Shown here in pieces: positions 27,226-45,550 of a stretch of DNA of 64,000 nucleotides. Position numbers and translations under genes: made by a program. This stretch comes from Gammaproteobacteria bacterium. Its GTDB lineage: Bacteria; Pseudomonadota; Gammaproteobacteria; Steroidobacterales; Woeseiaceae. The stretch spans positions 1 to 64,000 of the forward strand of contig JAOUGX010000001.1 in NCBI GenBank assembly GCA_029865385.1, written 5' to 3'. The notes under the pieces are model-generated. The model had not been told where the DNA came from. It saw nothing but the letters and a program-made list of their open reading frames with translations, and did not search any database. Numbering within the stretch: the first letter of the stretch is position 1; every line of letters begins with the position of its first letter.

Positions 27226-27416
27226 TCGCAAATTTAATAACTTGCTGAACGAAGCGAGAATTTGGCTTAATTTAGCGATTGGACTTCAAACAAGCGCAAC
27301 GCGTCACACAGCGCTTATAATCGCGGCTCCGATGGACGCGAGAATCGCTGCGCGAGAACGGGCGTGGCGCATACAAGCAGCTGGCAAGCCGTTGCAAGAG
27401 GTTGGATAAGGCGAGA

Positions 27417-28316
27417 ATGGCAAAGGACCTGGAAGTCGCGATTCTTTTCGCCGATGTCGTCGGAAGCACCCAGCTATACGATCAGTTCGGCGACAGCAAG
27501 GCCAGCGAAACGGTCGCCCTTTGCCTTGACGTGATGAAAGATGCCACACGGCAATTCAGCGGCAAGGTCATCAAGACCATCGGCGATGAAATCATGGCCA
27601 CGTTCCCGACCGTCGACGACGCCATGGGTGCCGCGAGCCAGATGCAGGGGCGTATAAGCAGCGACGCTGAGCGTAGCGGCGCGCACATCCCGGTATCCAT
27701 CCGCATCGGCTGTCACTACGGACCGGTCGTTCAGGAGAAGAACGACATTTTCGGTGCCGCGGTCCACACCGCCAATCGCATGACCTCGCAGGCCAAGGCC
27801 CGACAGATCGTCATATCCGGATCGACAGTGGAACGCATGAGCGCCGAATGGCGGGCACAAACACGTCAGATCGATGTCGCCACGGTTCGTGGCCGCCTCG
27901 ATGAAGTCGCACTGTTCGAGCTGTTGTGGCAACCGGACGAAGCCACCAGCATGTTGCCTACCATCGAATGGGAGAACAAAACCCGTGGCGCGAAAAAGCT
28001 GACACTTACGTTTCGCGAGAAATCGGTCGTTGTGACGGATCAGAAAAAAAACGTCAATATGGGCCGCGCCGATGACAACGACCTGGTCGTCAAAGGCAAC
28101 CTGATCTCACGTATTCACGCCCGCGTCGAAAAACGCCGTGGTAAATTCATTCTCATCGACCAGAGCACCAACGGCACTTTCCTGCAAAACGTCAGGGGAG
28201 AAGAAATCTTTATCCGGCGCGACAGCACCGAGCTGGTCGGCGAGGGCATCATCGGCCTCGGCCGGGTCGCCAAGCCCGGCACGCCGCTTGCCATTCATTT
28301 CATCTGCGAAGACTAG
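27417..28316 (+). CDS. Class III nucleotidyl cyclase fused to an FHA domain
   Basis: This 299-residue cytoplasmic protein has a class III cyclase domain (about 5-170) and a C-terminal FHA phosphothreonine-binding domain (about 205-290; MGRADDNDL, ISRIHA, STNGTF). Metal aspartates Asp13 and Asp57, and the adenine-selecting Lys53/Asp110 pair, favour cAMP production. The position usually occupied by the transition-state Asn is His117, while the Arg (Arg121) is kept. The start could be a TTG at 27402; ATG 27417 is preferred. The stop shares a CTAG with pckG. Confidence 0.88.
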   Translation: MAKDLEVAILFADVVGSTQLYDQFGDSKASETVALCLDVMKDATRQFSGKVIKTIGDEIMATFPTVDDAMGAASQMQGRISSDAERSGAHIPVSIRIGCHYGPVVQEKNDIFGAAVHTANRMTSQAKARQIVISGSTVERMSAEWRAQTRQIDVATVRGRLDEVALFELLWQPDEATSMLPTIEWENKTRGAKKLTLTFREKSVVVTDQKKNVNMGRADDNDLVVKGNLISRIHARVEKRRGKFILIDQSTNGTFLQNVRGEEIFIRRDSTELVGEGIIGLGRVAKPGTPLAIHFICED

Positions 28317-30064
28317 ACTACTTTTTGCAGCGCCTCGACCACCTGTTCGTGCTCGCTGAGCAGTGCGGCCGGCAATCGATCGCCGTAACATTCCAGGTAT
28401 TGCAGGATGGACTCCATCTCCTGCTGCCATTGATCGACGTCGACTGACAGCAATGCGTCCAGGGTCTCCGGCGCGATATCGAGATCCCGGGTATCGATGT
28501 CGGAGCGTTCCGGCAGAAAACCGATCGGCGTTTCTCTCGCGGCAAGCCGGTTTTCGCAGCGATCTATGATCCAGCGCAGGACTCGCAGGTTTTCGCCGAA
28601 GCCCGGCCACAAGAACTTGCCGGACTTGTCCTGGCGGAACCAATTGACATGAAAAATTCGCGGCAACTTGTCTGATCGTTCCGCGAACGACAGCCAGTGC
28701 GCCCAGTAATCGGCGAAGTTGTAGCCACAAAAAGGCTTCATTGCCATGGGGTCGCGCCGAATCACGCCGACGGCACCGGTTGCAGCCGCCGTGGTTTCGG
28801 AAGCTACGCCGGCACCGACCAGGACACCGTGGCGCCAGTTCTTTGCTTCATAAACCAATGGTGCCAGCTCCTTGCGCCGGCCACCGAAAACGAGTGCCGA
28901 GATAGGAACGCCTTCCGGCGCTTCTGCCAATTGCGAGTAGCTCGGATTCTTCTTCGCCGATACGGTAAACCGCGAATTCGGATGAGCCGCCGGACCGTTG
29001 CCCGGTTCGTATTTGCGTCCCTGCCAGTCGATGGCAGGCGATCCGACCTTCTTGTCTTCCCACCAGGGCTGGTTGTCTTCGGTGGTTGCGACGTTGGTAA
29101 AAATCGTGTCGCTGCGAATCATGTCGAATGCGTTCTTGTTGGATTTCGCGTTGGTGCCTGGCACCACACCGAAATACCCGGCCTCCGGATTGATCGCGCG
29201 AAGCACACCCTGCTTGTCGAGGTGCAACCAGGCGATATCGTCCCCCAGGGTCCAGATTTTCCAGCCGGGCTGCGACGGCGGCGGCACCAGCATTGCAAGG
29301 TTGGTTTTGCCGCAGGCAGACGGAAATGCGCAGGCTATGTAATGGGTTTCTCCCTGCGGGCTTTCGACGCCGACGATTAACATGTGCTCAGCGAGCCAGC
29401 CTTCCTGGCGGGCTTGCCAGCTCGCGATACGCAAGGCATGGCATTTCTTGCCCAGCAGTGCGTTGCCGCCGTAACCGGAGCCGAAACTCTGAATGCTCAG
29501 TTCTTCCGGAAAATGCATGATGAAACGCCTTTCCGGGTCCAGTTCGCCGATCGAGTGCAGGCCCTTGACGAATCGGCCCTCCTGCTCGATGCGTTTCAGC
29601 GCGGCGGTGCCCATCCGCGTCATTATGCGCATGTTGGCAACGACATAAGGGCTGTCGGTAATTTCCACTCCGAGCCGCGCATACGGCGAATCGATCGGAC
29701 CCATGCAATAGGGGATCACATACATCACTCGGCCTTGCATTGCGCCCTCGAACAGCGCGTCCATTTTCGAGTGCGCTTCTTTCGGCTCCATCCACTTGTT
29801 GTTCGGGCCCGCGTCGTCCTTGTCCGGTGTGCATATAAAGGTGAGGTGTTCGACCCGGGCAACGTCGGAGGGATTGGAGCGGTGCAGGTAGCAGTGCGGG
29901 TAGTTCTGCGGGTCCAGCGGCAGCAGGTCCCCGGAGCGGGTCATCTCGTTTATCAGGCGCTTGTATTCGGCATCGCTGCCGGTACACCAGTGAATGTCTT
30001 CGGGCTGGGTCAGTTTCGCCACGGAATCGACCCACTCCTGAAGGGCTGTCAAAGATGAAGTCAT
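28313..30064 (-). CDS. pckG: Phosphoenolpyruvate carboxykinase (GTP)
   Basis: This 583-residue enzyme converts oxaloacetate and GTP to phosphoenolpyruvate, CO2 and GDP, the entry step of gluconeogenesis. The kinase P-loop ACGKT at 250-254 contains the hyperreactive Cys251 seen only in the GTP-dependent family. Substrate-site motifs (FGSGYGGNALLGKKCHALR, HPNSRFT) are present. It is slightly shorter than the 600-residue norm. It converges with the cyclase gene, and the two stop codons overlap in CTAG at 28313-28316. Confidence 0.95.
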   Translation of the reverse strand: MTSSLTALQEWVDSVAKLTQPEDIHWCTGSDAEYKRLINEMTRSGDLLPLDPQNYPHCYLHRSNPSDVARVEHLTFICTPDKDDAGPNNKWMEPKEAHSKMDALFEGAMQGRVMYVIPYCMGPIDSPYARLGVEITDSPYVVANMRIMTRMGTAALKRIEQEGRFVKGLHSIGELDPERRFIMHFPEELSIQSFGSGYGGNALLGKKCHALRIASWQARQEGWLAEHMLIVGVESPQGETHYIACAFPSACGKTNLAMLVPPPSQPGWKIWTLGDDIAWLHLDKQGVLRAINPEAGYFGVVPGTNAKSNKNAFDMIRSDTIFTNVATTEDNQPWWEDKKVGSPAIDWQGRKYEPGNGPAAHPNSRFTVSAKKNPSYSQLAEAPEGVPISALVFGGRRKELAPLVYEAKNWRHGVLVGAGVASETTAAATGAVGVIRRDPMAMKPFCGYNFADYWAHWLSFAERSDKLPRIFHVNWFRQDKSGKFLWPGFGENLRVLRWIIDRCENRLAARETPIGFLPERSDIDTRDLDIAPETLDALLSVDVDQWQQEMESILQYLECYGDRLPAALLSEHEQVVEALQKVV

Positions 30065-30218
30065 TCGGAGGTCTCTGATTCTATTAAATTTCTATTAAAT
30101 GGCAGCGTCGACCGGCGGTCCCGGGTCAGCCGCTTTTTGGGGGCGCCATTATACCCATAGGCTGCCAAACTGCACCCCGCACCGGTCCTTTTCCTGTTGC
30201 CTTGGCAGCACCCACCAC

Positions 30219-30257
30219 AAAAAAAACCGCTGGTTCCGTCTCCGAAACCAGCGGTTA
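30219..30257 (-). terminator. Rho-independent terminator of the phasin-like gene
   Basis: Read on the minus strand, a 9-base-pair stem (CCGCTGGTT paired with AACCAGCGG, loop about 10 bases) is followed by a run of T (A-run at 30220-30227 on the plus strand). It lies about 40 bases after the phasin-like stop codon. Confidence 0.88.
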
Positions 30258-30297
30258 GTCTGACCGTCCGCGCCGGGGGGGGCGGGGACAGAGTGCT

Positions 30298-30852
30298 TCA
30301 GGCTGCTGCCAGGGAATCCTTCGTCTTGGCGGCAGTCTTGGTGACTTTTTTCGCTACTTTGCGAGTCTTTTTCTTGACCGCAGTTGCTTTGCGCTTGGCC
30401 TTCTTGCGGATCACCGCAGGCTTGCCGCGCAGTTCAGCTACGGTGCCCTTCAGCACGTCGCGAACTTCGTAACCGGCGCCGGCAACGATACTCAAGGTGT
30501 CGCGCGCATCGGCTCCGAAGCGCGAGATGTTCTGCGGAATCAGGCGTATTTGCGTGCGAACCAGCTCACCCAGGTTCCGTGCATCGGCAACGGCCTTCAG
30601 GCGATTGGCAACGGCATCGATCTGGTGCTCGACCAGACGGGTCTGCTGCTTCAGAACCTGATCAGCGGTCTTGTGGGAAATAGCGGTCAGCTTGAGGCCC
30701 AGACCGGTCATCGTCTTGACGGGCTTCTTGCCCTGTACGACGCGATCGGCGGCGGATTCGGTCCGCTGGCGTGCAAGCTTGACGATCCTGGTGTATCGAC
30801 CGCGAGCTTCATCAGCGACGCGGCTCATTGTGTTTTCGACATTCGGGTTCAT
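30298..30852 (-). CDS. Phasin-family protein with Lys/Ala-rich tail
   Basis: This 184-residue helical protein has a phasin-like core (about 15-140, with long amphipathic helices and QTRLVEHQIDAVANRL). A strongly basic tail (about 145-180) of repeated Lys/Ala/Thr segments resembles histone H1 and polyhydroxyalkanoate-granule PhaF tails. It may coat carbon-storage granules and tether them to DNA; this is inference from architecture. The frame extends to 30921, but the promoter at 30893-30921 and a GGAGAG site fix the ATG at 30852. Confidence 0.78.
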   Translation of the reverse strand: MNPNVENTMSRVADEARGRYTRIVKLARQRTESAADRVVQGKKPVKTMTGLGLKLTAISHKTADQVLKQQTRLVEHQIDAVANRLKAVADARNLGELVRTQIRLIPQNISRFGADARDTLSIVAGAGYEVRDVLKGTVAELRGKPAVIRKKAKRKATAVKKKTRKVAKKVTKTAAKTKDSLAAA

Positions 30853-30892
30853 GGGGTCTCTCCGTGGTGCGGTGCAGCAATTGTTGCGGTGC

Positions 30893-30921
30893 ACAATAGA
30901 GATCGCGGGCCTGTTTGTCAA
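30893..30921 (-). promoter_or_regulatory. Sigma-70 promoter of the phasin-like gene
   Basis: On the minus strand, TTGACA (30921-30916) and TATTGT (30898-30893) are separated by exactly 17 bases, 41 bases before the ATG at 30852. The match and spacing are near ideal. Confidence 0.82.
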
Positions 30922-31071
30922 GCCCGGGCGAGAATTTTTGCAGCTGCCGGGGATGCTGGCAGCCTTTTATGGAAAAGTACTGTAAAACAGTAAGTTACTG
31001 CCAATATCTGAAAGTGGATCGCACCTGTTGGGTTCCGCCGGGGCAACCTCGAAGGCATCGGTCGGGCAGAT

Positions 31072-31278
31072 TTACGCGGCAGTGGCGGCGTTTTTGCGCC
31101 AGATCGACAGCTGTGCCGGGGCCTGTACTCCCATTTTTACGCGGTTCGTGCCGGACGAGAAAATGGTGATCTCGATGGGGCCCGACTTGAACAGATCGGC
31201 CAGGGTCATCTTGGGATCGATGTTCTCTCCTGGACGTATCAGGATGGATTCGGCGTCACGTCGGCTTACGATCAACAT
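31072..31278 (-). CDS. csrA: CsrA/RsmA-like RNA-binding regulator with an insertion
   Basis: This 68-residue protein is a divergent CsrA. It begins MLIVSRRDAE and has the VKMGVQAPAQLSIWRKN core, retaining Arg6/Arg7 and Arg61 (equivalent to Arg44 of E. coli CsrA). About 14-16 extra residues lie between the first two strands (roughly 17-33). CsrA binds GGA sites in mRNA leaders; this one lies 32 bases after flgN in the flgM-flgN transcript, so flagellar or surface-switch mRNAs are likely targets. GGAAA precedes the ATG. The symbol is used in the family sense. Confidence 0.8.
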   Translation of the reverse strand: MLIVSRRDAESILIRPGENIDPKMTLADLFKSGPIEITIFSSGTNRVKMGVQAPAQLSIWRKNAATAA

Positions 31279-31310
31279 AGCTTGGTTTCCTTGCTCTGCA
31301 TTATTTTCGA

Positions 31311-31799
31311 TCAGGCTTCCGCCAGCTCCCGACCACCGAATCCGGTCGTCTCGGAGCCCTTAATTCCATAGCTCTCAACGGGCACTTCGCCGCCCCGAAG
31401 CAGCGCCAGGCCAGCCAGAATCTGCTGGCGACGCACCCGGATAATCGCTCCGTTGGTTGAATTCAGGGCATCGCACTCGCGTGCAATCTCGGTGAACTGC
31501 GACCAGCAATTGCGAATGACGGCGTCCTTGTCGCACCACTCGGTGAGCGCGGACATGTCATCGAGGCTGGCACTGAATCCCGCATCGCGGCTGATCTCGC
31601 CTCTGGCATCTTCGAATGCCGCCAGTTTCCGTATGCAGGATTCTTTCAGATCTGCACTCTTGCCCAGCAGGGCGGTATCCCGCTGCTCCAGTGCGCCGCG
31701 TTCTTGCAGGAGAACGTCCCGCAGGTCGAGCACGCAGTGAACGCTGTCACCCAGCACTTTTTGCAGTCTTTCGCGGGCTGTACTTGCAGAAAGGCTCAT
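31311..31799 (-). CDS. flgN: Flagellar export chaperone FlgN
   Basis: This 162-residue helical protein sits directly after flgM with overlapping stop/start (TAATG), the classical flgMN arrangement. FlgN escorts hook-junction proteins FlgK and FlgL to the export gate. The sequence is diverse, as usual for this family (coiled-coil N-terminal half, RVRRQQILAGLALLRGG near the C-terminus), so context carries much of the assignment. Confidence 0.83.
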   Translation of the reverse strand: MSLSASTARERLQKVLGDSVHCVLDLRDVLLQERGALEQRDTALLGKSADLKESCIRKLAAFEDARGEISRDAGFSASLDDMSALTEWCDKDAVIRNCWSQFTEIARECDALNSTNGAIIRVRRQQILAGLALLRGGEVPVESYGIKGSETTGFGGRELAEA

Positions 31800-32128
31800 T
31801 AATCACCGAGTTCCCGGTCTGTGCGAAGCAGCGCGGCGGCGATCTTGTCGCTGTCTATGACATAGTCGCCGCGCTCGATGGCGGTGCGAACGGCATCGAC
31901 CCGGCCGCTGTTGATTTCCGGCAACCCGGCCAGCGTCTTTTCCAGGCGCTCCAGTAACTTGGCGCTGCTGGTCAGTTCGACGGTGTCACTGCCGGCTGCC
32001 TGCTTCCTGACTTCCTTGGTGGAATGGGCCGGATCGGACGACACCTTGCCGGTGCTGCCCGTATTGCCAAGCTTGTCATTGATCTTGTTCAGCATCCCGA
32101 TATCCGCCGGATTAATCCTGTTGGACAT
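31799..32128 (-). CDS. flgM: Anti-sigma-28 factor FlgM
   Basis: This 109-residue protein holds FliA inactive until the hook is finished and FlgM is exported. The N-terminus is disordered and polar; the C-terminal helices (VELTSSAKLLERLEKTLAG, INSGRVDAVRTAIERGDYVID) match the sigma-binding region. ATG 32128 has GAGGAA about eight bases upstream, while the upstream TTG at 32143 does not. A sigma-28 promoter lies at 32166-32192, giving the usual feedback loop. Confidence 0.9.
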   Translation of the reverse strand: MSNRINPADIGMLNKINDKLGNTGSTGKVSSDPAHSTKEVRKQAAGSDTVELTSSAKLLERLEKTLAGLPEINSGRVDAVRTAIERGDYVIDSDKIAAALLRTDRELGD

Positions 32129-32165
32129 AATCTGATTCCTCAACTCTCATTGTTGCTATTACCGT

Positions 32166-32192
32166 GTATCGGCCGCGCTGGCCTCAACTTTA
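32166..32192 (-). promoter_or_regulatory. Sigma-28 (FliA) promoter of flgM
   Basis: On the minus strand, TAAAGTTG (32192-32185) and GCCGATAC (32173-32166) are separated by 11 bases. This matches the FliA consensus TAAAGTTT-N11-GCCGATAA at 14 of 16 positions, 38 bases before the flgM ATG. Confidence 0.88.
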
Positions 32193-32219
32193 GGTTCGTG
32201 TCTAAAAAAAACCTCATAT

Positions 32220-33023
32220 TCAGTAAACCAGCACTTCCACGTGCTCGGGCGAGCGCACCAGTCCTTCGACGACTCGTTTGGAGGTGACGTTCTCGACCTT
32301 GATTCGCTGGTTGGCGGCGCCGTCGGTCAGCGCCTTGCCGCTCATGCGAATATTGAGTGCATCATTGCGCACCAAAATCGTGACGCTCTGGCCGCGGCGG
32401 ATCATCAGGTCCGCCTGCAGCATCGCCGGAGTGATCACGCGGCCGGCCATCAGCTGGTGCTTCAGGCGCTGGCCGACCAGCTCCTCGGCACTCGACAGGT
32501 AGCCGCCGACCATACCGGAGACGTCTCTTTCCTCGATCCGCACGTCATCGGCTCCGACCACGTGCCCGTTGGGCAAGGTGCGCGCGGCGATCAGGACCGT
32601 TTCGGTGACCATGACATCGACCGGCAGGTACATTTTCCAGGGGCTCCGGCCGTCACAACGGACCCCGACAATGGTTCGACTTGAAATCTTGCTGCCCCGG
32701 CGAAGGAAACCATTGAGGGGCTCGCTGCATCGAGGCATCTGCAATCGCGGATCCAGCCAGCCCGCCTGCAGCGCAATTCGCTTGTCGGCATGGCCCAGAC
32801 GCTGGCGCAGAAACTCCTCCGCCGTATCGGCAATTTCTTCGGTCGGATGCCAGGCTGTCGACGGATCCGCACCGCCCGCCGGCGTGACCAGCGCCATCGC
32901 CGCGAGTGTGCTCGCCAGCAACAGGCCGGGAACCCGCAGCCGCCGGACTTTGCCGTCAGTAAACTGTCGGTCGAATACCGGTCCCGTCAAAAAGCTGACG
33001 TAATTTCGTTGTGCAATGTGCAT
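32220..33023 (-). CDS. flgA: Flagellar P-ring assembly chaperone FlgA
   Basis: This 267-residue periplasmic protein assists FlgI polymerisation into the P-ring. An export signal lies at about 28-51 (LRVPGLLLASTLAAMALVTPAGG). The SAF-like and C-terminal FlgA domains follow, ending in the typical VTILVRNDALNIRMSGKALTDG...VENVTSKRVVEG pattern. It is divergent from flgB, with a sigma-54 promoter at 33137-33151. The extended N-terminus before the signal could reflect a later start. Confidence 0.9.
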   Translation of the reverse strand: MHIAQRNYVSFLTGPVFDRQFTDGKVRRLRVPGLLLASTLAAMALVTPAGGADPSTAWHPTEEIADTAEEFLRQRLGHADKRIALQAGWLDPRLQMPRCSEPLNGFLRRGSKISSRTIVGVRCDGRSPWKMYLPVDVMVTETVLIAARTLPNGHVVGADDVRIEERDVSGMVGGYLSSAEELVGQRLKHQLMAGRVITPAMLQADLMIRRGQSVTILVRNDALNIRMSGKALTDGAANQRIKVENVTSKRVVEGLVRSPEHVEVLVY

Positions 33024-33136
33024 TCGATCAAGTCCTCGAGCCTTATGTTCTGGCGCTAATCATTGTGTTGCCGCGATCAGCCGTGTGTGCCAGCGCGCGT
33101 TCTTCTGCATTCATTGATCCTTCATCCAGGGTGATT

Positions 33137-33151
33137 GCAAGAGCCATGCCA
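33137..33151 (-). promoter_or_regulatory. Sigma-54 promoter of flgA
   Basis: On the minus strand TGGCAT (33151-33146), five bases, then TTGC (33140-33137) give the invariant GG and GC with 12-base phase, about 110 bases before the flgA start. Confidence 0.82.
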
Positions 33152-33198
33152 GCTCGGCATTCGTTTATTCAGCACGGATTTTGTGTGTAGACGACAGG

Positions 33199-33226
33199 TT
33201 GCCGCCCCGCGGCAAGAAATTGCCGC
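33199..33226. promoter_or_regulatory. Triple inverted-repeat motif, candidate FleQ/FleR enhancer site
   Basis: Three alternating 7-base motifs TTGCCGC, GCGGCAA, TTGCCGC occupy 33199-33205, 33209-33215 and 33220-33226. The inner 14 bases GGCAAGAAATTGCC match the Pseudomonas FleQ box GTCAATAAATTGAC at 11 positions. It sits between the divergent flgA and flgB sigma-54 promoters, at a distance expected for an enhancer serving both. Confidence 0.55.
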
Positions 33227-33299
33227 AGGGCATCTCCATCTGTATCGGCCAAAGTCGACAAAGCTTTATTTGTGCACTTCCGATACGCGATTCTGGAGT

Positions 33300-33314
33300 T
33301 GGCACAGGCTTTGC
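33300..33314 (+). promoter_or_regulatory. Sigma-54 promoter of flgB
   Basis: TGGCAC, five bases, TTGC is a perfect core match to the -24/-12 consensus, placed 31 bases before the flgB ATG at 33346. It would drive the flgBCDEFGHIJ(KL) transcript. Confidence 0.9.
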
Positions 33315-33345
33315 ATTAAGCCAGACAGGCACAAAACCGGAATCG

Positions 33346-33741
33346 ATGACGATGGACATTCAACCTTTTGCACAGCATGAGCAGGCACTGAAATTCCGTG
33401 CGCTGCGAAACCTGGTGCTGACGTCAAACATCGCGAATGCCGACACGCCGAACTACAAAGCACAGGACATCGAGTTCAGCGACGTCCTGAACAACGCCAG
33501 GGCCGACGGCCTGTCGATGAAAAAGACCAGGGACAAGCACCTGGAGACTGTGGCGATGTCGACACTTAACCCGGCGATGAAATACCGCATTCCCACGCAG
33601 CCGACGCTGGACGGCAATACGGTTGAAACAGATGTCGAGCAGGCGGCCTTCGCGGAAAACGCGGTGCAGTACCGGGCGAGCCTCGCTTTTCTGAATGGAC
33701 AGATCCGAACTCTGCGCTACGCAATCAAGGGAGGCGACTGA
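33346..33741 (+). CDS. flgB: Flagellar proximal rod protein FlgB
   Basis: This 131-residue axial rod protein has the N-terminal rod signature LTSNIANADTPNYKAQDI and a C-terminal helix with VQYRASLAFLNGQIRTLRYAI. The frame extends upstream through the promoter, so the start is either ATG 33346 or 33352; both lie downstream of the sigma-54 site. The stop overlaps the flgC start (TGATG). Confidence 0.93.
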   Translation: MTMDIQPFAQHEQALKFRALRNLVLTSNIANADTPNYKAQDIEFSDVLNNARADGLSMKKTRDKHLETVAMSTLNPAMKYRIPTQPTLDGNTVETDVEQAAFAENAVQYRASLAFLNGQIRTLRYAIKGGD

Positions 33742-34154
33742 TGTCACTTTTTAAGGTATTCGATGTAGCCGGCTCGGCCATGAACGCACAATCGGTGCGC
33801 CTCAACGTTACGGCCAGCAATCTTGCCAACGCCGGAAGCGTCAGTGGCGATCCGGATAAAGTGTATCGGGCGAGACAGCCTGTGTTTTCGAGCTTTCGGG
33901 ACACGCTGTCTGGCGAAGCCGGCATCGGTGGCGTACGCCTCGAGAAGATCATCGAGAGCAGTGCGCCGCTGCAAATGCAATACCAGCCCGATCACCCGGA
34001 CGCAGACGAGAACGGCAACGTCTACGTGTCCAACGTCAATACGGTTGAGGAAATGGTCAACATGATGTCCGCCTCGCGCTCGTACCAGAACAACGTCGAG
34101 CTGGTAAATACCACGCGCGACATGCTTTTGCAGACCCTGTCGCTCGGCAGCTGA
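33741..34154 (+). CDS. flgC: Flagellar proximal rod protein FlgC
   Basis: This 137-residue rod protein has the N-terminal motif RLNVTASNLANAGSVSGDPDKVYRARQP and the C-terminal VNTVEEMVNMMSASRSYQNNVEL helix that packs into the axial core. It is exported through the flagellar type III gate without a cleaved signal. It directly follows flgB and precedes flgD by 31 bases. Confidence 0.95.
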   Translation: MSLFKVFDVAGSAMNAQSVRLNVTASNLANAGSVSGDPDKVYRARQPVFSSFRDTLSGEAGIGGVRLEKIIESSAPLQMQYQPDHPDADENGNVYVSNVNTVEEMVNMMSASRSYQNNVELVNTTRDMLLQTLSLGS

Positions 34155-34185
34155 TCGACGAGCCCAGACGAATTAAGGAAATACG

Positions 34186-34851
34186 ATGACGACAATATCC
34201 GGATTTGAAGATGCAGCGCTGTTCGCGCCACCGCCGCAACGCGCGTCGCGCAGCGACCTCGGCCAGGAAGACTTCCTGAAGCTGATGATCACCCAATTCA
34301 GAAACCAGGACCCGTTCGAACCGATGGATAACGGGCAGTTTCTCGGCCAGCTTGCGCAGTTCAGCACGGTCAGCGGTATCGAGTCCCTCAACGGTGCGTT
34401 CTCCGGATTATCGGCGTCGATGGCGAACGAACAGGCGCTGCAGGCGGCAAACCTGGTCGGTCACAACGTGCTGGCGCTGACTGACGTCGGTTATCTCGCC
34501 GATGGCGGATCGATAGCAGGTGGCGTGGAACTCGGCAGTGCGGCGGGCAACGTGCAAATCGACATTACCAATCGCAATGGTGAGTTGGTACAGAGACTGA
34601 ATCTTGGCGAACAACAGGCCGGACTGGTGCGATTCAACTGGGACGGGCGCGACTCCAGCGGAGAGCAGGCCGACAGTGATCACTACATGATTACGGCGCG
34701 TGTCGTTCGCGGCGCCAATACCGAGAGTCTTGCAACCCTGCTCGAATCCAGAATCGAAAGCGTAACCCTTGGCCAGTTCGGCCAGGGCATGACGCTGAAC
34801 CTGCCGGGTGGAGACACCCTGCCGCTCAGCCTTGTACGACGAATTATCTAA
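34186..34851 (+). CDS. flgD: Flagellar hook-cap protein FlgD
   Basis: This 221-residue hook-capping protein has the N-terminal segment GQEDFLKLMITQFRNQDPFEPMDNGQFLGQLAQFSTVSGI that defines the family. An Ig/Tudor-like domain (about 80-190) includes VRFNWDGRDSSGEQADSDHYMITA. It guides FlgE assembly and is then replaced by FlgK. AAGGAA lies eight bases before the ATG. Confidence 0.95.
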   Translation: MTTISGFEDAALFAPPPQRASRSDLGQEDFLKLMITQFRNQDPFEPMDNGQFLGQLAQFSTVSGIESLNGAFSGLSASMANEQALQAANLVGHNVLALTDVGYLADGGSIAGGVELGSAAGNVQIDITNRNGELVQRLNLGEQQAGLVRFNWDGRDSSGEQADSDHYMITARVVRGANTESLATLLESRIESVTLGQFGQGMTLNLPGGDTLPLSLVRRII

Positions 34852-34878
34852 ACAGAATTTTTCCAGGAGAAACTGACC

Positions 34879-36096
34879 ATGCCATTTGCCATCGCTTTAA
34901 GTGGGCTCAACGCCGCATCGGCCGATCTCGGCGTAACGGCGAACAACGTTGCCAACGTCAATACGACCGGCTTCAAGATGTCGCGCGCGCAGTTTTCCGA
35001 AGTTTTTGCCGTCGGCACCCAAAGCGTAAGTTCCAGCGCCTCGGGAAGCGGCGTGCGCCTTTCCGCAATCGCGCAGCAATTCACACAAGGCAATATCGAC
35101 TTCACCGACAACGCGCTGGACCTGGCGATTGCTGGCGAAGGCTTCTTCGTGCTGAGCGACAACGGCGCCCGCGTCTACTCGCGAGCCGGTGCATTCGGTG
35201 TCGACAACCAGGGCAATGTTGTGAACGCGCAGGGGCTGCGGTTGCAGGCCTACCCGTACGCCGGTAATGGCCTGTTCAATACGGGCACACCGACCGATCT
35301 GCAACTGACCATCGGCGCCAACCCGCCGGCCGCAACGACGAGTGCGAATCTCGGACTGAACCTGCCGGCCGATTCGCCGGTGCCGGCGAACCCGGTATTC
35401 AGCCCGTCCGATCCGTCCAGCTTCAATCACACGACATCCGTGACGATTTACGATTCGCTCGGCGCCGCGCACACGGCAACCGTTTACTTCATCAAAGACC
35501 CGGCGCCGAATACCTGGAATACTGCGGTTGAAATCGACGGCACAACGGTTGCCGGCGCGACACCGATCGTCTTCGCCAACGACGGTTCATTGCAGTCACC
35601 GCCTGGCGGACTGATGCCGCTGGCGCCGTATACGCCGACGACCGGCGCTGCCGACATCACGATGGCGTTGAATTTTGCAACCGCAACCCAGTTTGGTGAC
35701 GCGTTCGGTGTCAATTCGCTGTCCCAGGACGGGTTTACCACTGGCCGACTTACGGGCGTGAGTGTCGACGCGGAAGGTGTCGTGTTTGCACGTTTTACCA
35801 ACGGCCAATCGACTTCTCTCGGAAAACTGGCGCTGGCGAATTTCGTCAATCCGCAGGGACTGCAGCAGCTGGGTGACACAACCTGGGGCCAATCCTTCCA
35901 GTCCGGCGATGCGTTGCTCGGCGAAGCCGGAACGGCCTCGTTCGGCAACATCCAGTCCGGCGCGCTGGAAGCTTCGAATGTCGACCTCACTGCGCAACTC
36001 GTGCAGATGATCACGGCACAGCGCAACTTCCAGGCTAACGCACAGATGATTTCCACAGCCGACACCGTCACCCAGACGGTTATCAACATCCGCTAG
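34879..36096 (+). CDS. flgE: Flagellar hook protein FlgE
   Basis: This 405-residue hook subunit has the N-terminal [34 protein letters not shown] motif and a C-terminal EASNVDLTAQLVQMITAQRNFQANAQMI helix, flanking a D2/D3 region (about 140-330). The hook is the bending joint between rod and filament. It follows flgD by 27 bases with an AGGAG site. Confidence 0.96.
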   Translation: MPFAIALSGLNAASADLGVTANNVANVNTTGFKMSRAQFSEVFAVGTQSVSSSASGSGVRLSAIAQQFTQGNIDFTDNALDLAIAGEGFFVLSDNGARVYSRAGAFGVDNQGNVVNAQGLRLQAYPYAGNGLFNTGTPTDLQLTIGANPPAATTSANLGLNLPADSPVPANPVFSPSDPSSFNHTTSVTIYDSLGAAHTATVYFIKDPAPNTWNTAVEIDGTTVAGATPIVFANDGSLQSPPGGLMPLAPYTPTTGAADITMALNFATATQFGDAFGVNSLSQDGFTTGRLTGVSVDAEGVVFARFTNGQSTSLGKLALANFVNPQGLQQLGDTTWGQSFQSGDALLGEAGTASFGNIQSGALEASNVDLTAQLVQMITAQRNFQANAQMISTADTVTQTVINIR

Positions 36097-36127
36097 GTCA
36101 CGCAGCATTGAGATTTGAGGAATTGCA

Positions 36128-36868
36128 ATGGATGAAATGATTTACCTGGCGATGACCGGCGCGAAGCAGACCGAATACGCGCAGGCCATCAACAGCAACA
36201 ATCTGGCGAATATCTCGACCACGGGATTTCGTGCCGACCTGCATGCCTTCAGCTCGCTTCCGATCGAGGGTCCGGGCGTGGACTCGCGTGTCAATGCAAT
36301 CGTCGAATCCTACGGCACGGATTTTTCGCAAGCGGCGGTCGCAAACACCGGGCGCGATCTCGATATCGCAATCCAGGGTCGTGGATTCATCGCAGTCCAG
36401 GCGCCCGATGGCAGCGAAGCGTACACACGCGCCGGTGATCTGCGCATCGGCTCCGGCGGATTGCTTTCGACCGGCGCCGGGCACCTGGTCATGGGCGAGG
36501 GCGGGCCACTGGCGGTTCCGCCGCACAGCAGCCTGCTGGTTGGCGCGGATGGCACCGTATCCATACAGGCGCTCGGTCAGGGTCCGGAAACGCTGTCGAT
36601 CGTCGATCGCATCAAGCTGGTCGATCCGGATACCAGCCAGTTGAGCAAAGGTCGCGATGGTCTGCTGCGCTTGCCCGAAGGCGAAACGGCCGGCCCCAGC
36701 GCCAACGTGCGCGTAACGGCGGGTTCGCTGGAACAGAGCAATGTCAACATCGCCAGGACGCTGGTCAATATGATTGAGTTGTCCAGGCAGTATGAAATGC
36801 AGATCAACGTAATCAAGACTTCCAAGGAAGATGCAGACGCCGCCGCGCAGATGATGCGGGTCGGTTAG
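36128..36868 (+). CDS. flgF: Flagellar rod protein FlgF
   Basis: This 246-residue rod subunit has an N-terminal motif [20 protein letters not shown] and a C-terminal [38 protein letters not shown] segment. It is shorter than the hook protein, as expected, with a central LTRAGDL-type rod domain. GAGG precedes the ATG by six to nine bases. Confidence 0.94.
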
Positions 36869-36885
36869 TCGTTGAGGAGAAAGAA

Positions 36886-37671
36886 ATGAGTCAGGCATTG
36901 TGGGTGGCAAAGACCGGTCTTGATGCGCAGCAAACGCGCATGGCGGTCATTTCCAACAATCTTGCAAACGTGAACACGACCGGCTTCAAACAGGGCCGAG
37001 CCGTATTCGAGGATTTGCTCTATCAGAATGTGCGGCAGTCAGGCGGGCAGACTTCGCAGGATACCGTGTTGCCTTCCGGCATGAATCTCGGCACCGGCGT
37101 ACGCGTTGTTGCGACGGAAAAAATGTTTACACAGGGCAGCATGCTGCAGACCGAAGCGGCACTGGATGTTGCGATCAAGGGTCGCGGCTTTTTTCAGATA
37201 CTGCTCCCCGACGGCAATCTTGCCTACACGCGCGACGGAACGTTTCAACGCAATGCGCAGGGCGAGATGGTAACGGCCAGTGGCTACACGGTGCAGCCCG
37301 GCATCACGATTCCGGACGGTGCACAAAGCATCACGATCGGCACCGACGGCGTGGTTTCCGTGCAGCTCTCAGGGCAACCGGCGCCGTCGCAGGTCGGCAC
37401 GCTGGAAACCGTCGATTTCATCAATCCGGTCGGCTTGCAGCCGATCGGCGAGAACCTCTTTATTGAAACCGCATCGAGCGGCACAGCGCAGGCCGGTACG
37501 CCGGGCCTCAATGGATTCGGTTCGCTGGTGCAGGGCGCACTCGAGGGATCGAACGTCAATGTGGTTGCGGAACTCGTCAACATGATCGAGACGCAGCGCG
37601 CCTACGAAATGAATTCGAAAGCCATTTCGACCAGCGACCAGATGATGCAATACCTGAACAACAACCTTTAA
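36886..37671 (+). CDS. flgG: Flagellar distal rod protein FlgG
   Basis: This 261-residue distal rod subunit has the FlgG-specific N-terminal [39 protein letters not shown] and the C-terminal [34 protein letters not shown] helix. Residues 45-60 hold the FlgG insertion after the L-stretch that straightens the rod. It ends 12 bases before the first possible flgH start. Confidence 0.96.
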
Positions 37672-37683
37672 CGAGCGAACACG

Positions 37684-38490
37684 ATGAACAGTATGGTTGA
37701 TAAACAACGCGACGTCGGTCGAGAATTCACGTCTTTGCGAGCGAAGCGAAGCAATCCTGTTGACATTCTGTTCGCAGCATTTCTTCGTCGTCTGCGACTC
37801 TTCGCAACGACCCGTCCGCGTTCGATGCACTGCCTGCCGGTGGCTGTCATTACCCTTATGACCGGAGCCTGTGCCATTGCACCGGAACTGGACGAGCCAT
37901 ACCGTGCGCCGCCCGCCGTGCAACAGGACTACGAGCAGCCGAGCAGCGGAGCCATTTACCGCGCCGGCACCGAAGTACGTTTGTTCGAGGATCTGAAAGC
38001 GGGCCGTGTCGGAGACATTCTGACCATTCGCCTGGCTGAACGCACCGATGCAACCAAGAATTCCAGTACATCTACATCAAAAGCCACCGAAGCTGCGATT
38101 GGCAATCCGACGATTTTCGGCCGGCCGATCACTGCCGGCGGAACGCCGGTCTTCGAAGGCAGCCTGAGCGGCGACCAGTCCTTCGACGGCGCCGGCTCGA
38201 GCAGTCAGAGCAACAGCTTGGAGGGTGATATCACGGTTACCGTGATCGAACGACTGGCCAATGGAAATCTTCGCATCACCGGCGAAAAGTGGGTCACGAT
38301 CAACCAGGGCAAGGAATTCATAAGACTGTCCGGAATCATTCGTCCCTACGATATCGAACCGGACAACTCACTGCTGTCGAGCAAAATTGCCGACGCGCAG
38401 ATTACTTACAGCAGCAAGGGCGTCATGGCCGCGGCAAACCGCATGGGTCCATTCGCGCGTTTCTTCCAGTCCATATTTTACGGTTACTAA
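37684..38490 (+). CDS. flgH: Flagellar L-ring lipoprotein FlgH, with repeat-derived leader
   Basis: FlgH forms the outer-membrane L-ring. From ATG 37684 the protein is 268 residues; from ATG 37825 it is 221, the usual length, and opens with a good lipoprotein signal whose lipobox ends LMTGAC. The segment between these starts (about 37731-37811) is a dispersed GTCATTGCGAGCG-type repeat and encodes the telltale SLRAKRSNP peptide. The mature domain ([43 protein letters not shown]) is intact. The true start is probably 37825; the longer frame is given because it is fully open. Confidence 0.88.
37731..37811. repeat. Dispersed GTCATTGCGAGCG-type palindromic repeat at the 5' end of flgH
   Basis: The left arm GTCTTTGCGAGCGAAGCGA at 37731 and the right arm ending GACTCTTCGCAACGAC near 37811 are degenerate copies of the arms seen at 3631 and 3681-3713. 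The element lies in frame in the flgG-flgH junction and disturbs no rod or ring coding sequence. Confidence 0.78.
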
Positions 38491-38500
38491 GGAATTGATC

Positions 38501-39637
38501 ATGCGCGACAGCTTCGATTTCGCAATGAACACAAGACGCATACTGCTGATCGCAATGCTCTGCTTCGGCGCGGGGCAAAACGCGCTTGCCGATCGCATCA
38601 AGGATCTTGCCAACGTTGCCGGCGTACGAAACAACCAGTTGACCGGTTACGGGCTCGTCGTCGGTCTCGATGGTACCGGTGACCAGACCAGCCAGACGCC
38701 ATTCACAGTGCAAAGCGTTGTGAATATGCTGACGCAGTTCGGCATTACGATTCCACCGGGTGTCAACCTGCAATTGAAGAACGTCGCGGCGGTCTCCATA
38801 CATGCTGACCTGCCGGCATTCAGCAAGCCCGGGCAGGCGATCGACGTCACCGTGGCTTCGATCGGCAATGCGAAGAGCCTGCGCGGCGGCAGCCTGCTGA
38901 TGGCACCCTTGCGCGGCGCTGACGGCAATGTTTACGCGATTGCCCAGGGGAACCTCATCGTTGGCGGCTTCGGTGCATCCGGCAACGACGGCTCGCGGGT
39001 AACGGTCAACGTACCGAGCGCCGGCCGCATCCCGAACGGCGCGACCGTCGAAAGGACGGTTGCCAGCGATTTCCTCACGCGCGAATCGGTGGTGTTGAAT
39101 CTGCACATCCCGGATTTCACGACATCGAATCGGTTGGCGATACTGATAAACGAAACGCTCGGGCCAGGCACTGCGCAGGCGATAGATGCCGTCTCTGTCA
39201 ACATCCGGGCGCCACTCGATCCAATGCAGCGAACGTCTTTTCTTGCGCACATCGAAAATCTCGAGGTGGATCCCGGCCAGGCGGCTGCGCGAGTCATCAT
39301 CAATTCCCGGACGGGCACCGTCGTCATCGGCGCCAACGTGCGGGTTACTCCGGCAGCCGTATCGCACGGTTCGCTGGTCGTAACGATCAGTGAAAAACCT
39401 TTTGCGAGCCAGCCCATCGCACCGTTTTCCGATTCAGGCCAGACTGTCGTGCTGCCGAATTCACGGGTCGATATCGAGCAGGAAAAATCCAGCATGTTTC
39501 TATTCCAGCCCGGAACGAGCCTGGACGAGATCGTGCAGGCGGTTAATCGCGTCGGGGCGGCACCGGGTGATCTCGTTGCGATACTCGAAGCGTTGAAACA
39601 GGCAGGCGCATTGCGCGCTGAACTGGTCGTCATTTGA
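38501..39637 (+). CDS. flgI: Flagellar P-ring protein FlgI
   Basis: This 378-residue periplasmic P-ring protein has a signal peptide at about 10-29 (ending [20 protein letters not shown]). The highly conserved [34 protein letters not shown] block follows. The ring forms around the rod at the peptidoglycan. The ATG at 38501 has AAGGAA eight bases upstream, directly after flgH. Confidence 0.97.
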
Positions 39638-39649
39638 GGATCGAATGGC

Positions 39650-40576
39650 ATGACTTCGGCCGTAACGGATTTTTCGCAGTACACCGAACTTCGTTCGGGA
39701 GCGGCAAGAAATGACCCGGCCGTACTGCGCGAGGTCGCAGGGCAGTTCGAGGCGTTGTTCCTGCAGACTTTGCTGAAAAACATGCGAAACGCGGAGCTCG
39801 CCGAACCGCTGTTTGGCGAAAGCGACCAGCACGGCATGTACCAGGACATGATGGATCAGCAGCTGTCGGTGGAGATGGCGAGCGGTCGCGGAATGGGGCT
39901 TGCCGACATGCTGGTGCGACAGCTCGGTGGCACAGCGGCGGCCATTCAGCCAACAAAGGAGAGTTATTCATTGGCCACGCCGGTGCGCGCCGCCGCAAGA
40001 AAGCCTGACTGGCCCAGTCACGTGGATTTTGCGCGGGATCTCTGGCCGCACGCGAAACGGGCAGCTGGCAAATTGAATGTCGCGCCTGAAGCACTGCTTG
40101 CACAGGCAGCGCTGGAGACCGGGTGGGGTAAACACGTTATGCAGCGGGGCGACGGCGTCAGCAGCTTCAACCTTTTCGGTATAAAGGCCGGTACCGACTG
40201 GCCCGGTGGCAGCGTCAGCCGTGCAACGCTCGAATATCGCGACGGATTGCCGCAACAAGAGGTTGCAAGGTTTCGCGCTTACCCGGACATCGCGGCGACT
40301 TTCGATGACTACGCCGAATTTATCGCATCGCATCCGCGTTACGAGGCAGTTCAGGGCAAGGGCGCCGACGTCGACGGGTTTGCCAGGGCGCTGCAGGATG
40401 CAGGCTATGCAACGGATCCATCCTACGCCGAAAAGATCAATCGCGTGCTGAATAGTGAAGCTATGCAAAACGCCATGCGCGGGCTAAAGAACGATGCCGC
40501 GCGGCCGATAACTCTGGTGCGTGCACCGGTCACGGAACACCAGGTCATGGTGACGCCAGGGGATGACAGGGAATAA
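39650..40576 (+). CDS. flgJ: Flagellar rod assembly muramidase FlgJ
   Basis: This 308-residue protein has two domains. An N-terminal rod-capping domain (about 25-95, ALFLQTLLKNMRNAELAEPLFG) is joined to a C-terminal peptidoglycan hydrolase (about 140-285) with the glutamate Glu156 in LAQAALETGWGKHV. It opens the cell wall for the growing rod. The two-domain form is typical of gamma- and betaproteobacteria. It ends two bases before flgK. Confidence 0.94.
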   Translation: MTSAVTDFSQYTELRSGAARNDPAVLREVAGQFEALFLQTLLKNMRNAELAEPLFGESDQHGMYQDMMDQQLSVEMASGRGMGLADMLVRQLGGTAAAIQPTKESYSLATPVRAAARKPDWPSHVDFARDLWPHAKRAAGKLNVAPEALLAQAALETGWGKHVMQRGDGVSSFNLFGIKAGTDWPGGSVSRATLEYRDGLPQQEVARFRAYPDIAATFDDYAEFIASHPRYEAVQGKGADVDGFARALQDAGYATDPSYAEKINRVLNSEAMQNAMRGLKNDAARPITLVRAPVTEHQVMVTPGDDRE

Positions 40577-40578
40577 CA

Positions 40579-42468
40579 ATGCCTGACCTATTATCAACGA
40601 GTCTTTCGGGAATGCTCGCTTTTCAGCGGGCACTGCAGATGACCGGACACAACATCGCCAACGCCAACACGCCGGGCTACAGCCGGCAGGTTGCGGAGTT
40701 CTCGACCCGCATCGGTCAGAGTGCCGGATTCGGCTATATCGGTGGTGGCACCCAGATCACAACGATCAAGCGCATATACGATGCGATGCTTGGCGAGCAA
40801 TTGCGTACATCGACGTCGGGCCAGGCTCGATATTCAGTAATGAATACGCTGGCCAGCCGGCTGGACACGATGCTCGCCGACCCGAACACCGGCCTGAGCA
40901 CAGGCTTGCAGTCGTTCTTTGGCGCGTTGCAGGATGTAGCGAACGATCCGTCGTCGACTCCCGCACGCCAGGCGCTGCTTGCCGATGCCAACGGTGTCGC
41001 ACAGCGTTTCCACTCATTGGATCAACGCCTCGCCGAGACGGAAAAGGAAGTCAACCAGCGGATTTCACTTGCCGTTGCCGACATCAATCGACTGGCGTCA
41101 TCAATCGCCGAGGTCAACGACCAGATCGCCCGGGCCAGCGGCATCAGCGGGCAACCGGCGAATGACCTGCTGGATCGTCGCGATGTGCTGGTGCGGGACC
41201 TGGCTGCGCAGGTTTCAGTTTCGACGGCGTTGCAGGACGATGGCACGCTCAGCGTGTTCATAGGTTCCGGGCAGACGCTTGTTATAGGAACGTCTGCAAA
41301 GCAGCTGGCCGTCCGCGGCAGCGAATTCGATCCCACCCGACTCGAAGTGACCTACCAGGGCAGCTCGGGAAACATCCAGCTCGACAGCAACCTGACGGGC
41401 GGCACACTGGGAGGCCTGCTGGACTTTCGTCGCCAGATGCTCGATCCGTCGCGGCAATCGCTGGGACAAACGGCAGTTGCATTCGTACACAGTTTCAATG
41501 AGCAACATCGCTCCGGTATGGATCTGCGCGGCGCGCTCGGCGGCGACTTCTTCGGCATCGATTCTCCGGATATTCTGCATTCGGCATCAAACACCGGCAG
41601 TGGCACGGTTTCTGCAACAGTTTCGGATCTGTCGACGTTCACCGGTGAGGACTACATCCTGCAGTTCGATGGCGCGGCGTATTCGCTTACCCGTGCGTCG
41701 AACGGACAGCCCGTCGCAATGAGTGGCAGTGGAACCCTTGCCGATCCCTTTGTCGCCGGCGGAATGAGTATGACAGTCGGAGGTTCGGCGGCCGCCGGCG
41801 ATCGCATGATGATTCGCGGCGCGGTCAACGCCGCGGGATCGATCAATACACTTATCTCGGATCCGCAGGCTATCGCTATGGCGGCGCCAACGCGGACCAG
41901 CGCGTCCATCGGAAACATCGGCGACGCATCGATCAGTCCCGCGACCGTGGTCGACCGAAACGATCCGGCGTTGCTGACCAGCGCGGTGGTTCAGTTTACC
42001 GGACCCAACACCTACAGCATCAACGGCGCAGGTTCCTTTGCTTACACCGATGGTGCTCCGATTTTGATCAACGGCTCGGAGTTCACCGTCAGCGGAACCC
42101 CGCAAAGCGGCGACCAGTTCACCTTGGAACCGAACTTCGGTGCTGTCGGTGACAACAGCAACGGGCTTTTGCTGGCCGATGTGCAATCCGCAGGCCTGCT
42201 CGACGGCGGCACGGTCAGCATCAGTTCGAACTATTCGCAGCTGGTTGCCGGCGTTGGTGGAACAACCCGCCAGGTGCAGGCAAATTACGATGCACAGAAT
42301 GTCGTGCTGGCCAATGTCGAGAGTGCCCAACTGGCAAAGTCCGGTGTCAACCTCGATGAAGAAGCGGCGAACCTGATCCGTTTTCAGCAGGCTTACCAGG
42401 CGGCAGCCCAGGTAGTAAGCGTAGCCAGCACGCTGTTCGACGCCCTGTTGAACGCGACCCGCCGTTAA
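40579..42468 (+). CDS. flgK: Flagellar hook-filament junction protein FlgK
   Basis: This 629-residue junction protein (HAP1) starts LLSTSLSGMLAFQRALQMTGHNIANANTPGYSRQVAEF and ends with AKSGVNLDEEAANLIRFQQAYQAAAQVVSVASTLFDALLNATRR, both flagellar axial motifs. A long central region (about 130-560) forms the surface domains. It is larger than the 547-residue Salmonella protein, as in many polar-flagellated species. Confidence 0.95.
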   Translation: MPDLLSTSLSGMLAFQRALQMTGHNIANANTPGYSRQVAEFSTRIGQSAGFGYIGGGTQITTIKRIYDAMLGEQLRTSTSGQARYSVMNTLASRLDTMLADPNTGLSTGLQSFFGALQDVANDPSSTPARQALLADANGVAQRFHSLDQRLAETEKEVNQRISLAVADINRLASSIAEVNDQIARASGISGQPANDLLDRRDVLVRDLAAQVSVSTALQDDGTLSVFIGSGQTLVIGTSAKQLAVRGSEFDPTRLEVTYQGSSGNIQLDSNLTGGTLGGLLDFRRQMLDPSRQSLGQTAVAFVHSFNEQHRSGMDLRGALGGDFFGIDSPDILHSASNTGSGTVSATVSDLSTFTGEDYILQFDGAAYSLTRASNGQPVAMSGSGTLADPFVAGGMSMTVGGSAAAGDRMMIRGAVNAAGSINTLISDPQAIAMAAPTRTSASIGNIGDASISPATVVDRNDPALLTSAVVQFTGPNTYSINGAGSFAYTDGAPILINGSEFTVSGTPQSGDQFTLEPNFGAVGDNSNGLLLADVQSAGLLDGGTVSISSNYSQLVAGVGGTTRQVQANYDAQNVVLANVESAQLAKSGVNLDEEAANLIRFQQAYQAAAQVVSVASTLFDALLNATRR

Positions 42469-42480
42469 TCGGAGACAAGC

Positions 42481-43674
42481 ATGCGAGTTTCGACATTCGG
42501 TTCCTACCAGCAGGGCTTGAGTATGATGCAGCAGCTTCAGGCAGCCCTGGACCATACCCAGCGGCAGATCTCGACCGGCCGGCGAATCCTTGTGCCATCA
42601 GAGGATCCGATTGCCGCCTCGCGTGCGCTCGACCTGCGCGAAGCGCTGGCCCGGCTCGGACAGTTCGACCGGAACAGCAACATTGCGAGGAACCGGCTCA
42701 GCGACGAGGAAGTGGCGTTGGGCAGCGTCAATAACGTATTGCAACGCGTGCGCGAGTTGGCCCTGCAAGCGAACAATGCGACACAGAGCGATGAGACTCG
42801 CAGCCTGATAGCCATCGAAATGCGCCAGCAGCTCGACCAGCTGGTGCAGCTGGCCAACCAGCAGGACGGCAACGGCCGGTATTTGTTCTCCGGCAATCTC
42901 GATGGCACCACGCCGGTGACACGCAGCGGCCAGAATTTCATGTACAACGGGGATCAGGGCGTCCGCCTGATCGAGATCGGCGAGAACCGCCGCATTCCGG
43001 ACGGCAACTCCGGTGCCGAAGTGTTTTTCAGGATCCGCAACGGAAATGGCATCTTTTCGACCACGCCGGGACCGGTAAACAGCGGCTCTGTCGTCGCCGG
43101 GGCCGGCAGTCTGATCGATCCGACCCTGTACGACCAGGACACTTATACACTGCGCTTCATCGACCCGCAGAACTACGAAGTGCTGGACTCGTCATTGGCA
43201 GTCGTTTCAAGCGGCACTTACCAGAGCGGAAACTCGGTCGCATTTCGCGGCATCGAGTTTTCGATGAACGGGCAACCGGCCGCGGGAGACGAATTCGTGG
43301 TCGCGCCCAGCCGTTTCCAGGATGTGTTCAGCACGATTCGCCAACTGGCCGATACCGTTGATGCGCCGGTCAATGGCGATGCATCGCGTGCGGCGCTGAA
43401 CAATGGGGTCAACGGCAGCATCCTGGGTCTTGACCAGGCTTTGGGCAAGATCCTCGATGTCCGGACCCAGGTCGGATCGAGACTTTCTGCTATCGAAAGC
43501 CAGGGCGACAGCAACAGCGCGTTCGCGCTGACAGTGCAGGATACCCTTGCCCAGCTCGAGGATCTCGACTATGCGGAAGCCTTGTCCCGGCTCAGCCTGC
43601 AAATGACCACGCTGGAGGCCGCGCAGCAGTCCTTCATCCGGACGCAGCAGCTTTCCCTGTTCAACTACTTCTAG
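42481..43674 (+). CDS. flgL: Flagellar hook-filament junction protein FlgL
   Basis: This 397-residue junction protein (HAP3) resembles flagellin at both ends: MRVSTFGSYQQGLSMMQQLQ at the start and a C-terminal SLQMTTLEAAQQSFIRTQQLSLFNYF helix. A flagellin-like N-terminal region (RVRELALQANNATQSDE) is well conserved. It follows flgK by 12 bases and ends the flg operon. Confidence 0.94.
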   Translation: MRVSTFGSYQQGLSMMQQLQAALDHTQRQISTGRRILVPSEDPIAASRALDLREALARLGQFDRNSNIARNRLSDEEVALGSVNNVLQRVRELALQANNATQSDETRSLIAIEMRQQLDQLVQLANQQDGNGRYLFSGNLDGTTPVTRSGQNFMYNGDQGVRLIEIGENRRIPDGNSGAEVFFRIRNGNGIFSTTPGPVNSGSVVAGAGSLIDPTLYDQDTYTLRFIDPQNYEVLDSSLAVVSSGTYQSGNSVAFRGIEFSMNGQPAAGDEFVVAPSRFQDVFSTIRQLADTVDAPVNGDASRAALNNGVNGSILGLDQALGKILDVRTQVGSRLSAIESQGDSNSAFALTVQDTLAQLEDLDYAEALSRLSLQMTTLEAAQQSFIRTQQLSLFNYF

Positions 43675-43791
43675 TTTTTTTTCGCACGATCTTCGTGCGC
43701 CACGTCACACTTTATACAGTAACTCCTAAAGTTTGTCGTTTTCCCGCCGGGCACGGCGCGGGCTTCCGTCGATAAATTGACGGTAATTTCC

Positions 43792-43818
43792 TCAAGCTTT
43801 TCAGAACCGAACCGATAA
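43792..43818 (+). promoter_or_regulatory. Sigma-28 (FliA) promoter of fliC
   Basis: TCAAGCTT, 11 bases, ACCGATAA matches TAAAGTTT-N11-GCCGATAA at 13 of 16 positions, about 100 bases before the flagellin ATG. A second, weaker candidate (perfect TAAAGTTT at 43727, N11, GCCGGGCA) lies upstream. The remaining leader contains no gene. Confidence 0.82.
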
Positions 43819-43918
43819 CCTCACTGTACGGTGGTCTTGAATGGATATCGCGACCCCAGACAATGACTTCCGGCGGCATAAGCAGACCGGGTTATTTTTC
43901 TGACTAGGAGTTTTTGAA

Positions 43919-45061: not shown

Positions 45062-45094
45062 GCGTAGTTTGACGCAATAGCAGTAAGCACCGAA

Positions 45095-45122
45095 ACAGGG
45101 GCGGCATGGATGCGGCCCCTGT
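45095..45122 (+). terminator. Stem-loop after fliC (terminator-like, no U-tract)
   Basis: An 8-base-pair perfect stem, ACAGGGGC with GCCCCTGT, loop 12, follows the flagellin stop by 34 bases. There is no T-run after it, so it may stabilise the abundant fliC message or weaken read-through into flaG rather than terminate fully. Confidence 0.45.
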
Positions 45123-45142
45123 CGGAGCGGAGGGAAAGCGAT

Positions 45143-45511: not shown

Positions 45512-45550
45512 GAAACTGGGCCTAAAAGGCAGTCGCCGTGGTGAATTACA

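Follow-up and report, generated by a model that had tools for sequence, protein, structure and literature searches.

csrL, an RsmN-type gene of the CsrA family behind flgM and flgN in Woeseiaceae

Our analysis indicates that a short gene at the end of a flagellar gene cluster in Woeseiaceae encodes a CsrA-family protein of the RsmN type, which is probably a translation regulator dedicated to motility. We name this gene csrL; it lies at 31072-31278 on the minus strand of the window, by which we mean the whole stretch of 64,000 nucleotides that was analysed. The gene, its family, the position of its insertion, the operon arrangement, the conservation of the promoter and the occurrence among genomes were computed. 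The flagellar link of csrL is stronger than a preliminary description of this DNA stated, and its fold is less novel than that description thought. We put the probability at roughly 0.7 that CsrL is a sigma-28-controlled, flagellum-dedicated translational regulator of the RsmN type that binds GGA-containing RNA, a binding deduced from its conserved residues and from precedent.

The csrL gene and the fold of its product

A 68-codon open reading frame fills this interval, and its translation is MLIVSRRDAESILIRPGENIDPKMTLADLFKSGPIEITIFSSGTNRVKMGVQAPAQLSIWRKNAATAA. The preliminary description of a 68-residue CsrA-like protein with the ends MLIVSRR and SIWRKN and with Arg61 was borne out by the reading frame, by Pfam and by alignment, and the coding strand is the minus strand. 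The score against the Pfam CsrA family (PF02599) was 42.2 bits with a cut-off of 27, which places the protein in the CsrA family; two NCBIfam CsrA equivalog models gave 33.9 and 32.6 bits, and neither reached its cut-off (73 and 70.1). Arg61 aligns with the essential Arg44 of CsrA and with Arg62 of RsmN, and both Arg6 in strand 1 and Arg61 in strand 5 are invariant in 26 aligned rows and in 30 diverse RsmN-type rows. When genome contigs were scanned, 27 relatives with 72-88% identity turned up, all from Woeseiaceae or from unnamed gammaproteobacterial or proteobacterial MAGs. Mismatch between the window and 20 relatives was 0.13, 0.11 and 0.52 at codon positions 1, 2 and 3. Because positions 1 and 2 are kept and position 3 is free, the protein is under selection. 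The conservation of csrL is far beyond chance; within its loci, the gene is better kept than flgM, flgN and flgA, and its conservation is similar to that of flgC, a gene for a rod protein. Two Woeseiaceae (G483 and G432) have divergent csrL genes (L122 and L123) in the same operon position, in which the tryptophan of IWR is missing (VVR and VQR).

An insertion in CsrL had been placed between strands 1 and 2, which would have made its topology different from that of RsmN. The alignments speak against both points. Aligning the family profile with the canonical CsrA of the same genome (hhalign) gave one 17-residue gap, located between strand 2 (ESILI) and strand 3 (IEITIF). In a phmmer search of the PDB with CsrL, the top matches were RsmF and RsmN of Pseudomonas aeruginosa, aligned over residues 2-67 with one single-residue gap, at E values for the single sequence of only 0.11-0.14; the family profile matched RsmN with a probability of 96 across 62 columns. 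In the crystal structure of RsmN, a helical insert of 16 residues separates strands 2 and 3, and a C-terminal helix is missing (PMC3791407). Since the insertion of CsrL is found at the position of the RsmN/RsmF helix, its topology is most likely that of RsmN, b1-b2-a-b3-b4-b5, and not a new one.

Structure prediction, which had been suggested as a check, supports this assignment in part. The AlphaFold2 model of the single chain, of moderate confidence (mean pLDDT 68.9, pTM 0.44), has the predicted elements E2-5, E11-16, H26-29, E36-42, E46-52 and E57-62. It is closest to RsmN and RsmF: the best four Foldseek matches were four RsmN/RsmF chains (probability 0.98-1.00), nothing credible was found below these, and VIA-align gave Z scores of 4.9-5.2 with RsmN chains. 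The model ends in strand E57-62 without a C-terminal helix, and the aligned flgN-linked and relocated CsrL proteins extend 5-11 residues beyond the strand-5 arginine. A second model was worse (pLDDT 63.8, strands 2 and 5 gone), and the deeper, more diverse alignment from which it was made was rejected as a route to a better model. Such behaviour may be that of a single chain of a dimer.

CsrL shares with RsmN/RsmF of Pseudomonas aeruginosa (PDB 4kji, 4krw, 4k59) the CsrA family, the helix insert between strands 2 and 3, the absence of a C-terminal helix and the equivalent of Arg62; the proteins align end to end with 27% identity, and RsmN/RsmF is the best structural match. They differ in the helix, which is T-L-A-D-L-F in CsrL and E-E-L-I-R-Q-L in RsmN, and in strand 5, which reads IWR and IVR, respectively. 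The genes also differ in their setting, because csrL is in a flagellar operon under apparent sigma-28 control, whereas rsmN is between PA5183 and PA5184 (PMC3791407). The source genome has one canonical CsrA, encoded separately on another contig (G000:C8:2019-2174). This protein and CsrL have in common the RNA-site residues of strands 1 and 5 and the Pfam CsrA domain, but CsrL is longer by 17 residues between strands 2 and 3 and lacks the C-terminal helix segment.

The flgA-flgM-flgN-csrL locus and sigma-28

Pfam confirms flgA, flgM and flgN upstream of csrL (Table 1), in agreement with the position first described. The stop codon of flgM overlaps the start of flgN, and 32 nt separate flgN from csrL. 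Simple scans of the gap between flgN and csrL found neither an additional promoter nor a terminator, and no Rfam family scored above threshold in window positions 28000-46000. flgA is on the same strand as the other three genes. Because it lies upstream of the sigma-28 promoter, it does not necessarily share a transcript with flgM. The order flgA-flgM-flgN-csrL is kept in relatives where the neighbourhood is present, except at L042, and flgB-flgC, where present, is divergent from it. The gene after csrL (30298-30852, minus strand) was detected behind csrL in some relatives only; its product is Phasin-like (Pfam Phasin_2, 33 bits) and has a tail rich in Lys and Ala. Elsewhere in the window (27402-28316, plus strand), an adenylate/guanylate cyclase catalytic domain is fused to an FHA domain.

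Table 1. Features of the csrL locus and of the flagellin leader in the window
Feature	Position	Strand	Basis
csrL, RsmN-type CsrA-family protein, 68 aa	31072..31278	-	Pfam CsrA, 27 relatives, codon-position pattern
csrL Arg61 codon (= CsrA Arg44 / RsmN Arg62)	31096..31098	-	invariant in alignments
Inserted segment, codons 17-33, predicted short helix, between strands 2 and 3	31180..31230	-	alignments, AF2 elements
csrL Shine-Dalgarno AAGGA, itself containing GGA	31288..31292	-	sequence
flgN	31311..31799	-	Pfam FlgN 75.8 bits
flgM, ATG at 32128	31799..32128	-	Pfam FlgM 53.7 bits, TIGR03824 66 bits, sequence
Sigma-28-type promoter TAAAGTTG-N11-GCCGATAC before flgM	32166..32192	-	14/16 consensus positions
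flgA	32220..33023	-	Pfam ChapFlgA 115.8 bits
Flagellin sigma-28 box and leader, weak candidate target	43792..43918	+	sequence, relatives' alignment
GGA in candidate hairpin loop of flagellin leader	43843-43845	+	
GGA in flagellin Shine-Dalgarno	43907-43909	+	

Promoters were scored against the sigma-28 consensus TAAAGTTT-N11-GCCGATAA over 16 positions. A box precedes flgM in 27/27 csrL-linked operons checked, the window and L013 included, with 13-15 of 16 positions matched and a spacing of 11 nt. Three copies of csrL are found outside the operon, L042 (G464), L113 (G466) and L114 (a second copy in G447), and the copy in G464 is behind type IV pilin-like genes. Sigma-28-like boxes are present at all three, no more than about 165 nt ahead of the start codon, and match 13, 14 and 13 of 16 positions, respectively; the background rate of boxes with at least 13/16 in other DNA was 10 in 311,818 positions. 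The boxes at these three copies are the strongest sign that csrL itself, beyond its neighbours, belongs to the sigma-28 regulon. At about 72 kb, the same contig carries a FliA-like gene after an FlhG-like gene. The region that separates flgA from the divergent flgB contains a second sigma-28-type box (14/16; 33242-33268, minus strand), which is about 220 nt upstream of flgA.

From this arrangement, csrL appears to be switched on together with late flagellar genes. csrL would be the final gene of a flgM-flgN-csrL unit that is driven by sigma-28 (FliA) and that we infer to be co-transcribed, and would thus be made with the late flagellar genes: export of FlgM would free sigma-28, and CsrL would then be produced alongside their products.

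Occurrence of csrL and other RsmN-type genes

Among 107 Woeseiaceae genomes, csrL was found as a full-length or near full-length match in 33 and FlgM in 38. All 33 csrL genomes are among the 38 with FlgM, and none of the 69 FlgM-negative genomes has csrL (Fisher p 1e-22, with kinship ignored and many of the genomes being incomplete MAGs). csrL is directly behind flgN in 31/33 of its genomes, on one contig and 517-609 nt from the FlgM match. The link to motility that the preliminary description suggested is supported by the synteny with flgA, flgM and flgN, the sigma-28 promoter, the restriction to FlgM-positive genomes and the boxes at the copies outside the operon. Two genomes that are 98-99% complete (G032 and G467) have flgA-flgM-flgN and flagellin but no csrL, and therefore csrL is dispensable for flagella. 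FliW was found in 0/107 Woeseiaceae genomes, with positive controls.

Sampling 370 genomes across the class showed full-length RsmN-type proteins in scattered families, so Pseudomonas is not their sole home. Profiles trained on Woeseiaceae detected no FlgM, FlgN or FlgA near the RsmN-type loci outside Woeseiaceae, and the neighbours of these genes, read by eye, are not flagellar. These loci rule out a universal linkage of RsmN-type proteins to flgMN. Within the genomes sampled, only Woeseiaceae seem to have the flagellar linkage. In a tree of 72 columns, csrL and canonical csrA form separate groups, and the Pseudomonas type is on its own starred branch, not adjacent to csrL; the tree is compatible with more than one order of these groups relative to RsmN, and with either a single origin or separate origins of the csrL-type and Pseudomonas-type insertions. 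Some Woeseiaceae (G016, G007 and G464) have a second RsmN-type paralogue (L015, L016 and L076), about 37-40% identical to csrL where measured, and the paralogue of L016 and L076 adjoins a gene for a LysR-type regulator. In another family of the order, an RsmN-type gene (L014:705-1707) is directly behind genes for a sensor kinase and a NarL/LuxR-type response regulator. One gammaproteobacterial genome (G398) gave eight matches to the RsmN-type profile in the class-wide search, an apparent expansion.

Possible function and targets of CsrL

We infer that CsrL acts as a homodimer on GGA-containing RNA targets, for the binding of which the strand-1 arginine and Arg61 of strand 5 would have been retained. 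CsrL probably tunes the translation of late flagellar or lifestyle-switch mRNAs. It is possible, at somewhat lower odds than even, that CsrL is instead a second CsrA with a general role and a broad regulon, and is flagellar only in the timing of its expression. RsmN of P. aeruginosa binds hundreds of transcripts, of which 503 were mapped (PMC6061880), and can partly replace RsmA (PMC3791407); the genome of csrL has one canonical CsrA. However, the occurrence in FlgM-positive genomes only and the retained sigma-28 boxes point to a flagellar role, with which a wide set of targets is still compatible.

The best guess for a target is flagellin mRNA, as a weakly supported candidate. The fliC leader is about 95 nt long behind a sigma-28 box. 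AUGGA is present in the loop of a candidate hairpin in most csrL genomes and in neither of the csrL-less genomes in the alignment. In hairpins drawn by hand, 91% of cells were paired compared with 20-49% when the partners were slid, and only two cells were compensatory. RNAalifold did not recover the hairpin in the leader and preferred another structure with an energy near zero. The loop GGA is lost in several csrL genomes, for example G029, G459, G479 and G482. Genomes with AUGGA and genomes with csrL do not coincide cleanly, and the hairpin was set aside as proof of a target because it is too weak. Direct repression of fliC translation by CsrL, through the GGA of the loop and that of the Shine-Dalgarno sequence, would be a FliW-free counterpart of the control of flagellin by CsrA in Bacillus and Campylobacter. 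The leader, its pairing, the absence of FliW and the precedent of the flaA leader of C. jejuni (PMC4894983) speak for such repression. We nevertheless regard it as unlikely, given the failure of RNAalifold, the few compensatory changes and the csrL genomes without the loop GGA; moreover, a GGA in the Shine-Dalgarno sequence is expected anyway, and the binder could be the canonical CsrA. It is similarly doubtful that a flagellum-dedicated RsmN-type regulator, produced under sigma-28 along with FlgM and FlgN, sets flagellin translation in gammaproteobacteria lacking FliW, as a separately evolved CsrA-family checkpoint on flagellar assembly. Action by protein contact in place of RNA binding, with CsrL for example as an antagonist of canonical CsrA or serving FlgM or FlgN, would fit the linkage to flgMN and the lack of FliW, the known protein antagonist of CsrA, but is highly improbable, because the RNA-site residues Arg6 and Arg61 are invariant and RsmN-type chains are docked monomers whose strands are not swapped (PMC3791407), so that CsrL would be less likely to pair with CsrA in mixed dimers.

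A dedicated flagellar regulator of the RsmN type, which we prefer for CsrL, can be compared with the csrA-fliW control of Bacillus subtilis and Campylobacter jejuni, in which a CsrA-family protein is also tied to flagella. In Bacillus, csrA belongs to a flgM-flgN-flgK-flgL-yviE-fliW-csrA neighbourhood. The Woeseiaceae protein differs in being of the RsmN type; neither flgK/flgL nor fliW intervenes in its operon, and the whole family lacks FliW. The adjacency of flgM, flgN, flgK and flgL in Bacillus has been described (PMC4054197), and in Bacillus and Campylobacter, CsrA is antagonized by the protein FliW (PMC4894983). Searches of the literature for CsrA with RsmN and flgM, or for Woeseiaceae with CsrA, found no earlier description of csrL, most subscription journals being outside their coverage.

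RsmN has so far been treated as a peculiarity of Pseudomonas. RsmN-type proteins are scattered across Gammaproteobacteria, and one subfamily is wired into a sigma-28 flagellar operon. The csrL gene of Woeseiaceae, a family of marine gammaproteobacteria, offers a clear setting for asking what the rearranged CsrA fold does, and it bears on whether gammaproteobacteria that lack FliW control the translation of late flagellar genes in a way of their own.
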